Shown: positions 11,087 through 16,699 of the stretch, piece by piece
Numbering within the stretch: position 1 is the first letter of the stretch
Layout of the letters: each line of letters begins with the position of its first letter
Assembly (NCBI GenBank): GCA_011389535.1
Contig: JAABUE010000013.1
Coordinates: 1 to 35,568, forward strand
DNA length: 35,568 bases
Direction of reading: 5' to 3'
From: Anaerolineales bacterium
Lineage (GTDB): Bacteria > Chloroflexota > Anaerolineae > Anaerolineales > Villigracilaceae
Notes under the pieces: model-generated
Seen by the model: only the letters and a program-made list of their open reading frames with translations
Told to the model about the DNA's origin: nothing
The model's database searches: none
Program-made: the position numbers and the translations under genes

Positions 11087-11216
11087 GAAGTGGTAAGTTT
11101 CCTCATTGAGGAGTCTTCTATATAGTACGGGGATGACAGGCTTCGACGGGAGAGGTTGTTCCCGGAATGCGGGTCGAGCGGCGCCGAACTCGTTAACTCA
11201 GCGCAAAAAATCAAGT

Positions 11217-11258
11217 GCCAACCGCACTTCCTATGCTGCTATGCCCCTCGCTGCATAA
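11217..11258 (+). other. tmRNA proteolysis-tag reading frame, ANRTSYAAMPLAA
   Basis: After the AAAAAATCAAGT stretch, codons GCC AAC CGC ACT TCC TAT GCT GCT ATG CCC CTC GCT GCA and TAA encode ANRTSYAAMPLAA. Alanine resume codon, an AN start and a hydrophobic LAA end are the hallmarks of the SsrA tag, which sends proteins to ClpXP and related proteases. The interior NRTSYAAMP departs from the common NDNYA core, which could alter SspB-like adaptor binding. Confidence 0.93.
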
Positions 11259-11493
11259 GCGATCTGCATAACAGTCGGTCTCCCTAGATGAGGCCGCGTC
11301 CACCTGCCCCGAACCTCCGCCAGGGACAGGCCCGGGCGAGACAAACGCGGAGTGCCGCACGCGATGCCGCTATAGCGTGCGAAAGACAAGCGGCTGGCTC
11401 AGGGTAGTCCGCGCCAGTTGAGGCGCCCTGCGTGACAATTTTCAACCGGCTACACTCGTAGATTTCCGTGGTGCGAATCTTTCGGACGCGGGT

Positions 11494-11774
11494 TCTTTAA
11501 CAATTGAATGAGCCCCTCTGCGTGGTGACATGCAGAGAAAATCCGGCTTAATCAGGGAAAGCTCACCGGCTTATGCCGATGCCAACCCTGAGGGGTGAAC
11601 CCGAAAGGGGTAAGCCCTGCATCGACTCATAGGCTCCTACGTTTTGTTTGTAATATGGAGTACTAGGGTAAGGAGAAAAATTTTCAAATCTAATCTCCTT
11701 ACAATACGCCGGAGAAGTGATGTATATCACTTCAAGAGATAGTCAGCGCCGTGGCGAAAGCCCGGAATTACGTG
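11494..11774 (+). ncRNA. ORF-less group I self-splicing intron inside the tmRNA T-loop
   Basis: All core elements are readable. P1: GGGTTC (11490-11495) pairs with GAGCCC (11510-11515) and places a U.G pair at T11493, the 5' splice site. P2: CTCTGC/GCAGAG (11516-11521/11532-11537). P3: TCCGGC/GCCGGA (11542-11547/11708-11713). P4: TCAGGG/CCCTGA (11552-11557/11586-11591). P5: CGGC/GCCG (11567-11570/11575-11578). P7: GACT-c-AT (11624-11630) with ATAGTC (11739-11744), including the typical bulge. P8: GAAGTGAT/ATCACTTC (11714-11721/11726-11733). P9 is capped by GAAA (11756-11759). Between P7 and P3 lie P7.1/P7.2-like hairpins, such as GTAAGGAG/CTCCTTAC, a trait of subgroup IA. The terminal omega-G is 11774. 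P10 pairs AATTGA (11502-11507) with 3' exon TCGATT. No homing endonuclease is encoded, so movement would rely on reverse splicing or outside help. Confidence 0.95.
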
Positions 11775-11794
11775 TCGATTCCCGCCATCTCCAC

Positions 11795-11836
11795 AATAAT
11801 TTCGACCAGCAAATTATACTGCTGGTCGAAATTATT
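11795..11836 (+). terminator. 17-bp perfect hairpin directly after ssrA
   Basis: AATAATTTCGACCAGCA (11795-11811) pairs perfectly with 11820-11836 around an 8-nt loop. It begins one base beyond the tmRNA discriminator base and its neighbour. The AT-rich foot (ATTATTT) could serve as a weak terminator tail. It is the best candidate for the 3' border of ssrA transcription, but so long a stem could also be a RNase processing site or a mobile repeat. Confidence 0.6.
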
Positions 11837-11942
11837 TAAACAGGGCAGCAAAAAATACACTTGTATTTTTAGCGTTTTGATCACAGATTTACCAGTAGTC
11901 CAACAGTTGGTCAATTGCGTTATACTGCTGCTCGATCTTATA
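11814..11942. repeat. Degenerate 23-bp direct repeat downstream of ssrA
   Basis: Positions 11814-11836 and 11920-11942 match at 19 of 23 bases, sharing TTATACTGCTG, then TCGA, then TTAT. The first copy contains the right arm of the ssrA 3' hairpin, so the second copy could compete to pair with the left arm. The stretch 11837-11951 otherwise shows no gene. Confidence 0.55.
11851..11870 (+). terminator. AT-rich 9-bp palindrome, possible second terminator of ssrA
   Basis: AAAAATACA (11851-11859) and TGTATTTTT (11862-11870) are complementary with two bases between them. The right arm ends in five T's. The stem is AT-only at its base, so its strength as a terminator is doubtful. Confidence 0.4.
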
Positions 11943-12015
11943 TAATACCCACGGTCACAAATTGCGCCTTCCCGCTCCTAAAAAAAGCGCAATTTGTGAC
12001 CGCGCTGGGTATAAT
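11943..12015. repeat. Long interrupted palindrome covering the lipoprotein promoter
   Basis: CGGTCACAAATTGCGC (11952-11967) is perfectly complementary to 11987-12002 across a 19-nt centre. The outer parts ATAATACCCA (about 11942-11951) and TGGGTATAAT (12006-12015) extend the symmetry with one mismatch and a 3-nt bulge. The right outer arm contains the TATAAT of the next gene. It could be an operator for a large dimeric regulator, a mobile palindrome, or a structured element. Confidence 0.7.
12010..12015 (+). promoter_or_regulatory. TATAAT -10 box of the lipoprotein gene
   Basis: Perfect TATAAT with 11 bases (CTGGAGACAGC) before the ATG at 12027. The expected leader would be only about five bases, too short to include the GGAG fully, so translation may be nearly leaderless. 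The box lies in the arm of the long palindrome. Confidence 0.55.
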
Positions 12016-12026
12016 CTGGAGACAGC

Positions 12027-12773
12027 ATGAAAAAACTGTTTTTGGTTGGACTATTCTTCCTGGTTGCGTGTGGCCAGCCCGCGACTCCCGAACCAACTTC
12101 TATCCCCTCAGCCACGGCCACTCAGATTCTTCCCACCCCCATACCTGTTACCGCTACCAATACGTTAACCCCACCCCCCACATCCACCTCCGAACCGCCA
12201 CCACGCTTCTTCACCGAAGAGTTTAACAGTGAGTTCGTACACTGGTCCACTCTATTTGCTTCCGGCGATGCCAGCCGTGTCGAGACCCTCAACCAGGATG
12301 GCAAACTGATATTTGAACTGTACAGTTCCAACGCCTGGTTGTACGCTATCTATGGCGCGCACGAATATCAAACGGTTAAGGTTGAAGCCAGTATCGAGAG
12401 CACCGGCAGCAACACCAATTACATGGGTTTGATCTGTAGTTACACAGAGCAGGAGGGCTGGTTCGAGTTCAACATTTCCAGCGACGGGAGCTATACCATC
12501 CTCCACGGCCAATGGCTGGGAGAAGGTGTAGCCAGTTACATGCCGGTTGCGGATGGCGGTTCCGAGTATATCAATCCGGGGAATACCACCAACGAGATTG
12601 GCCTGGACTGCCTGGGTGAAACCCTGCAGCTTTATATCAACGGCAAATTGTTCCGCAATATCGATGTATCTCGCTTCGAAATGGACGGGGGCAAAGTGGG
12701 TCTGGCCGTGGCTTCCTTCCAGGAAGTGCCGGTCATCCTGGGGTTTGATTGGGTGAAGGTGAGTGAGCCTTGA
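12027..12773 (+). CDS. Putative lipoprotein with a concanavalin-like (DUF1080-type) beta-sandwich domain
   Basis: 248 residues. The signal peptide MKKLFLVGLFFLVAC ends in a lipobox with the lipid-anchored C15. A Thr/Pro/Ser-rich linker (about 20-58) follows, then a domain (about 60-248) with FTEEFNSEFVHWSTL, YMGLICSYTEQEGWFEFNISSDGSYTILHG, LYINGKLFRNID and GGKVGLAVAS. This pattern is shared by DUF1080/LamG-like jelly-roll domains found in extracellular glycan-binding or glycan-hydrolysing proteins. No catalytic residues can be named. It is probably a cell-surface binding protein. It sits alone between ssrA and dnaK; its stop codon overlaps the left arm of an intergenic inverted repeat. Confidence 0.75.
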   Translation: MKKLFLVGLFFLVACGQPATPEPTSIPSATATQILPTPIPVTATNTLTPPPTSTSEPPPRFFTEEFNSEFVHWSTLFASGDASRVETLNQDGKLIFELYSSNAWLYAIYGAHEYQTVKVEASIESTGSNTNYMGLICSYTEQEGWFEFNISSDGSYTILHGQWLGEGVASYMPVADGGSEYINPGNTTNEIGLDCLGETLQLYINGKLFRNIDVSRFEMDGGKVGLAVASFQEVPVILGFDWVKVSEP

Positions 12774-16334: not shown

Positions 16335-16699
16335 ATGGCAAAAATCGAACGGTTTGAAGATTTGCATAGCTGGCAAAAGGCCCGGCAACTCGCTAACGCA
16401 ATTTATGATCTGACCGAACATCCGATATTCAAAAAAGACTTCCGCTTGAGCAGTCAAATTCAATGTGCTGCCGGATCGGCCATGCACAATATTTCAGAGG
16501 GCTTTGATTCTGGTTCAAACCCCGAATTCATCCGCTTCTTGAAAATGGCAAGGCGCTCCGCAAGTGAAGTACAATCTGAACTCTACCTTGCTCTCGACCG
16601 TAAATACATCACCCAGGATCAACTCACAACATCCTATAATCTTGCAACCGAAGTCAAACGCTCATCAACGGCATGATCGGATACCTGCGGAAATCCTAA
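16335..16699 (+). pseudogene. Four-helix-bundle protein (S23/TIGR02436-like), single-base frameshift near the 3' end
   Basis: The open frame from ATG 16335 encodes 113 residues: FEDLHSWQKARQLANAIYDLT, NISEGFDSGSNPEFIRFLKMARRSASEVQSELYLALD and YNLATEV, all typical of the family first noted in 23S rRNA insertions. It then ends abnormally with KRSSTA and a stop at 16674-16676. Reading one base back from 16661 gives LINGMIGYLRKS and TAA at 16697-16699, which is the normal family C-terminus. So one base is missing around 16658-16662, by mutation or sequencing error. The family has unknown function. The final helix of the bundle would be lost in the shortened product. Confidence 0.8.

Follow-up and report, generated by a model that had tools for sequence, protein, structure and literature searches.

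A Predicted Group I Intron Lacking a Homing Endonuclease Gene in the T Loop of an Anaerolineales tmRNA Gene

Introduction

An intron in the tmRNA of Clostridium botulinum was reportedly described by Williams in 2002. Self-splicing has been demonstrated for a C. botulinum tmRNA intron (PMC2729099), and the tmRNA intron site known before 2025 was position 7 of the T loop (PMC11915505). A recent survey counted 883 unique tmRNAs of the intron form, spread over four subsites of the T loop (PMC11915505, 2025); the view taken in the initial annotation of the present locus, that intron-bearing ssrA genes are known but rare, was therefore right in kind and is superseded in number. In that survey subsite 2 was described only from Anaerolineae and one Myxococcota, and the P7.1 region held most of the homing endonuclease genes (HEGs) of tmRNA introns. 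In nuclear rDNA, group I introns with an antisense HEG are well established, for example S956-2 and L2066 of Didymium (PMC3679873, PMC9548176).

The intron described here lies in the window, the whole 35,568-nt stretch of DNA that was analysed, from an Anaerolineales bacterium. It shares with the subsite-2 introns of PMC11915505 the insertion after U54, a host in the class Anaerolineae, and the –1U.G and terminal G rules, and from the insertion after U54 together with the –1U rule of that study it is read as a subsite-2 intron. The window copy is distinguished by having no HEG. It resembles the C. botulinum intron, by description and not by sequence, in being a group I intron that lacks a HEG and is about as long (287 nt in C. 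botulinum), and differs from it in taxon and in site, position 7 being the one known before 2025. The window intron is of an already documented kind, and what it adds is a HEG-less member of the minor subsite-2 class.

Results and Discussion

The ssrA Gene and Its Exons

On the plus strand of the window a one-piece ssrA gene with the standard gene order was found at 11129–11793, its T loop split by 281 nt at 11494–11774. The 5' exon (11129–11493), identified with RF00023 and with ARAGORN on the spliced sequence, begins with the acceptor strand GGGGATG and ends at T-loop position U54, and the 3' exon (11775–11793) supplies the rest of the T loop, the T stem, the acceptor 3' strand CATCTCC and the discriminator A. 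In the acceptor stem, as read from the sequence, 11129–11135 pairs with 11786–11792 and includes the G3.U70 pair (11131.11790). The tag reading frame, likewise read from the sequence, occupies 11217–11258 (GCC AAC CGC ACT TCC TAT GCT GCT ATG CCC CTC GCT GCA TAA) and encodes ANRTSYAAMPLAA*. The identical tag was found in locus L028 and in the intronless same-family locus L077, and the tag of the same-genus L078 is AKRTSYAAMPLAA. ARAGORN gave the window a tag starting AECRTRC, which was discarded as a mis-call in favour of ANRTSYAAMPLAA, conserved in relatives. A permuted two-piece tmRNA was also rejected, as RF04321 reached only 29.7 bits against a cut-off of 47 and the gene follows the standard order.

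A cmscan search with RF00023 gave a match at 11136–11491 with 87.3 bits, over the cut-off, in which the alignment breaks at the T arm. Throughout the unspliced window ARAGORN reported neither a tRNA nor a tmRNA gene; a tmRNA was called once 11493 was joined to 11775, and never before joining. This junction, which brings the exon end GCGGGT in front of TCGATTCCCGC, restores the T arm, with the insertion following U54. A 3' exon starting one base later was rejected, because the intron would then end in U and the terminal G would be lost.

All features of a functional tmRNA were present, namely a tRNA-like domain with G3.U70, a tag ORF, and the SmpB partner, found in the genome of this bacterium with 203 bits. 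A second intact ssrA elsewhere, which the initial annotation had named as evidence against its own reading, did not come to light, the 65%-complete assembly (210 contigs) holding no second tmRNA over the cut-off; in the same-genus genome G377 a single tmRNA passes the cut-off. If this ssrA, found in a 65%-complete assembly, is the only copy in the organism, its anatomy indicates that ribosome rescue would depend on splicing.

Homologous Introns, Secondary Structure and Covariation

Homologues were collected with a search pattern in which the intron is followed immediately by TCRANTCCC...CTCCA. It occurred in 55 stretches of GTDB genomes, many of them from Chloroflexota; many of the 55 loci gave no tmRNA and were left out, although some of these may be genuine genes that are cut short. 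The tmRNA of 18 other Chloroflexota records was split after U54 by a homologous intron at the identical position. These introns and that of the window were aligned (19 introns, with the ORF part cut out), and a group I structure with P1, P2, P3, P4, P5, P6, P6a, P7 (with a bulged C), P7.1, P7.2, P8 and P9 was drawn on the window sequence. Across the alignment the structure was 94.9% paired, as compared with a mean of 85.0% in shuffled controls and 32–49% in slid ones, and both partners had changed in 39 pairs, where the shuffles gave 19.5 ± 2.5.

P1 (11490–11495 with 11510–11515) was 100% paired, with the splice-site U.G pair (11493.11512) in 19 of 19 introns. It is followed by the 9-bp P2 (11516–11537), in which eight of the nine pairs showed changes on both sides. 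The conserved group I core P3-P4-P6-P7-P8 with the P3/P7 pseudoknot was found. P3 (11542–11547 with 11708–11713) was 100% paired and had both-side changes in four of its six pairs; P4 (11552–11557 with 11586–11591) was also 100% paired; and P7, formed by GACT(C)AT at 11624–11630 and ATAGTC at 11739–11744, was invariant and 100% paired. P6 (11592–11594 with 11615–11617) and P6a (11600–11602 with 11607–11609) were placed from the structure drawing and the alignment, and P8 (11714–11721 with 11726–11733) was 98.5% paired when its loop-closing pair was excluded. In P5 (11561–11562 with 11581–11582) the distal extension (11567–11570 with 11575–11578) was only 60% paired across the set, and the P9 hairpin with its GAAA loop (11749–11765) was variable in the outer pairs and 79.5% paired overall. 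Of the remaining helices, P7.1 (11634–11637 with 11657–11660) was 97.4% paired, with both-side changes in three of four pairs, and P7.2 (11668–11675 with 11695–11702) is the helix whose loop holds the HEG in relatives. P7.1 and P7.2 are by convention signs of group I subgroup IA, and their presence suggests that the intron belongs to this subgroup.

The last intron base was G in 19 of 19 introns, a count to be read with the fact that the homologue search pattern itself required a terminal intron G. The U.G pair at the 5' splice site, P3, P4, P5, P7, P8, P9 and the terminal G had all been proposed beforehand and are all present; P2, P7.1 and P7.2 come in addition to that earlier list. The 6-bp P10 of the same proposal (AATTGA with TCGATT) exists in the window and otherwise only in L043, and was rejected as a family feature (two of 19 introns). 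What is conserved is a P10 of 2–3 bp, possible in all 19 introns, between the GA just 5' of the partner of the U.G pair and the TC of the 3' exon; in the window this guide GA (11510–11511) pairs with intron positions 1–2 (UC) in P1 and is also able to pair with the UC that opens the 3' exon (11775–11776).

The Infernal check suggested with the initial annotation gave a divided answer, RF00023 scoring over its cut-off as described above and RF00028 matching the intron (11484–11765, 34.0 bits, E 8.5e-7; cmscan on an 851-nt stretch containing the gene) but falling short of its gathering score of 50. The shortfall is a matter of threshold, since the model aligns end to end and the covariation is independent support. 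With the RF00023 and RF00028 matches, the ARAGORN call after joining and the covariation in 19 introns, comparative analysis confirms the 281-nt insert at 11494–11774 (plus strand, terminal G at 11774) as a predicted group I intron in the tmRNA T loop, as originally claimed. Standard annotation misses this ssrA, ARAGORN remaining blank and the Rfam intron model staying under its cut-off.

The sub-threshold RF00028 score and the incompleteness of the genome could also be taken to mean that the insert is a decayed intron dead for splicing, that ssrA is here a pseudogene, and that rescue proceeds via another ssrA or factors of the ArfA/ArfB type. All core helices are intact, however, with an invariant P7 and the U.G pair; the exons have kept the acceptor with G3.U70, the tag frame and a T arm that is whole after joining; SmpB is present; and both this assembly and G377 hold a single over-cut-off tmRNA. 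We therefore regard a splicing-dead intron as highly improbable.

Probable Loss of an Antisense LAGLIDADG Gene

Seventeen of the 19 introns measured 658–692 nt and contained an ORF region, which was missing from those of the window (281 nt) and L059 (294 nt). In the relatives the ORF lies inside the P7.2 loop on the strand opposite the ribozyme, and it was antisense in all HEG-bearing homologues found. It matched LAGLIDADG_3 (PF14528; E 1.5e-5 and 9.3e-5), and in most relatives its start was preceded by a Shine-Dalgarno sequence TAAGGAG. Pairwise differences at codon positions 1, 2 and 3 of the antisense frame were 26, 20 and 55% in 15 long frames, a bias which argues that the antisense ORF evolves as a protein. 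A search for a solved structure for the HEG produced only a chance-level match (E 0.49) to an I-DmoI/I-CreI chimera.

The HEGs of this Anaerolineae family share with those of Didymium S956-2 and L2066 the location on the strand opposite the ribozyme. They differ in being bacterial, of the LAGLIDADG type, located in P7.2 and without spliceosomal introns, whereas the Didymium-type nuclear HEGs are of the His-Cys box type. HEG orientation is not mentioned in the main text of PMC11915505, and no description of an antisense LAGLIDADG arrangement in bacterial tmRNA introns was found in the literature searched, which is not proof of novelty. The present comparison exposes this arrangement in tmRNA introns.

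The 281-nt intron of the window itself holds no HEG, so that the homing endonuclease expected of a mobile intron is missing from it, and no relative of the HEG was found elsewhere in the assembly (65%-complete genome, 210 contigs); a free-standing copy may lie outside the assembled part. A putative vestige is seen on the minus strand at 11663–11701, consisting of the Shine-Dalgarno sequence TAAGGAG (11695–11701) and the C-terminal end TTTTTCTCCTTACCCTAG (11663–11680), the ORF between them being gone. This stretch also forms P7.2 and would be conserved anyway, so its conservation alone is no proof of HEG loss. In the intron tree the HEG-less introns of the window, L059 and L067 occupy three separate tips, requiring three HEG changes, with L059 and L067 sisters of the HEG-bearing L048 and L006, respectively. 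The position at three separate tips makes HEG loss the best reading, in which the window intron would be a HEG-less derivative that has lost its antisense LAGLIDADG gene.

The opposite history, in which the HEG-less forms are ancestral and an antisense HEG invaded P7.2 repeatedly, would agree with the place of the HEG in a peripheral loop, the normal site of HEG invasion, and with the coincidence of the scars with P7.2. It appears unlikely, given that the three HEG-less tips are nested among HEG-bearing introns, L059/L048 and L067/L006 being close sisters, and that the HEGs are all homologous and lie in the same loop in the same orientation. Loss also bears on a remark of the initial annotation: the absence of an endonuclease had been correctly noted, and the survival of the intron had been considered interesting in itself, which is better explained by loss of the antisense LAGLIDADG gene that most sister introns carry. 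Elsewhere in the family, the HEG frame of L039 looks broken and that of L043 apparently shifted, which may represent a decaying stage of homing or errors in draft genomes and MAGs.

Distribution and Mobility

Genomes were surveyed with an invariant 21-nt intron pattern, to which diverged introns are invisible. The pattern occurred in 12 of 396 genomes of the class, among which Anaerolineales and Thermoflexales records were recognised by sequence match, indirectly placing the host in Anaerolineae, against none of 263 genomes of the same phylum outside it; ten of the twelve carried the long form and two the short one (281 nt in the window, 283 nt in G247). In the same-genus genome G377 (locus L078) the T arm was uninterrupted and the site empty (GGACGCGGGTTCGATTCCCGCC), and its tmRNA is sister to the exons of the window with support of 100/100. 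The exons of the window are nested among Anaerolineales and Anaerolineaceae records in the exon tree, on which intron presence required at least nine changes, the tree set being enriched for intron-bearing genes. Patchy presence and a same-genus empty site are as expected for a mobile intron, and on these comparisons the intron family is considered mobile and, within Chloroflexota, was found here only in the class Anaerolineae. HEG-plus, apparently HEG-broken, HEG-less and empty-site relatives, including the same-genus empty site, are now at hand within one bacterial class, and with relatives in all four states the homing cycle of a tmRNA intron becomes directly traceable.

The same distribution bears on the speculation, raised in the initial annotation, that splicing could make rescue capacity respond to GTP, Mg2+ or temperature, and on the further idea that the intron is kept as such a regulatory switch. 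The requirement of group I splicing for guanosine and Mg2+ favours a switch in a generic way only. The patchy presence, the same-genus empty site and the homology to HEG-bearing mobile introns point instead to a selfish element, and no sensor domain was seen beyond the standard ribozyme; a switch is accordingly considered very unlikely.

The introns of L006 and L054 group together (98/96), while the exons of L006 group with the L012/L025/L034 clade (100/100), and the intron of one of them may thus have been acquired horizontally. A Neisseriaceae MAG (L019:28–646; RXKI01000036.1) also has its tmRNA split after U54, in this case by a group I intron of 240 nt (RF00028, 73.4 bits) that shows no obvious relationship to the Anaerolineae family. 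Provided that the binning is correct, it would place subsite 2 outside the published taxa.

Proposed Splicing and History

From the anatomy, the covariation, the homology, the intact tmRNA obtained by in silico joining and the SmpB of the genome, the locus is very probably a normal one-piece ssrA with a group I ribozyme inserted in its T loop behind U54. The ribozyme would be a HEG-less derivative of a mobile family. In P1 the guide GAGCCC pairs with the exon end GGGU and the intron start UC. By analogy with the group I family, the P7 pocket would bind an exogenous guanosine, which would cleave the RNA after U54; the freed U54 would then attack after the terminal G (11774) and be joined to UCGAUU. 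The T arm restored in this way should make the RNA usable by AlaRS, EF-Tu and SmpB. The HEG of the relatives presumably cleaves empty ssrA T loops, and a copy without HEG would persist because splicing makes the intron nearly neutral and precise loss is rare.

In L041, L028, L048 and other HEG-bearing loci the Shine-Dalgarno sequence of the HEG forms one strand of P7.2. As the last HEG codons form the other strand and transcription of the HEG is antisense to ssrA, the gene and the ribozyme may be interlocked, in the sense that expressing the HEG could preclude maturing the tmRNA and vice versa, and that the endonuclease could limit itself. We offer this as a tentative and rather doubtful suggestion; were it true, an intron that loses its HEG, like the window copy, would release ssrA from the conflict.

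Neighbourhood of ssrA

Just 3' of the gene a perfect inverted repeat was read from the sequence at 11795–11838 (plus strand), a possible terminator that has no T run and was not reported by the inverted-repeat scan. Further downstream, at 11954–12006, there is a strong inverted repeat (GTCACAAATTGCGC ... GCGCAATTTGTGAC) that is terminator-like on the minus strand. Between ssrA and dnaK, a 248-aa ORF (12027–12773) gave no NCBIfam or Pfam match, and the 113-aa protein encoded at 16335–16676 matched PF05635 (23S rRNA-intervening sequence protein) with E 5.8e-30.
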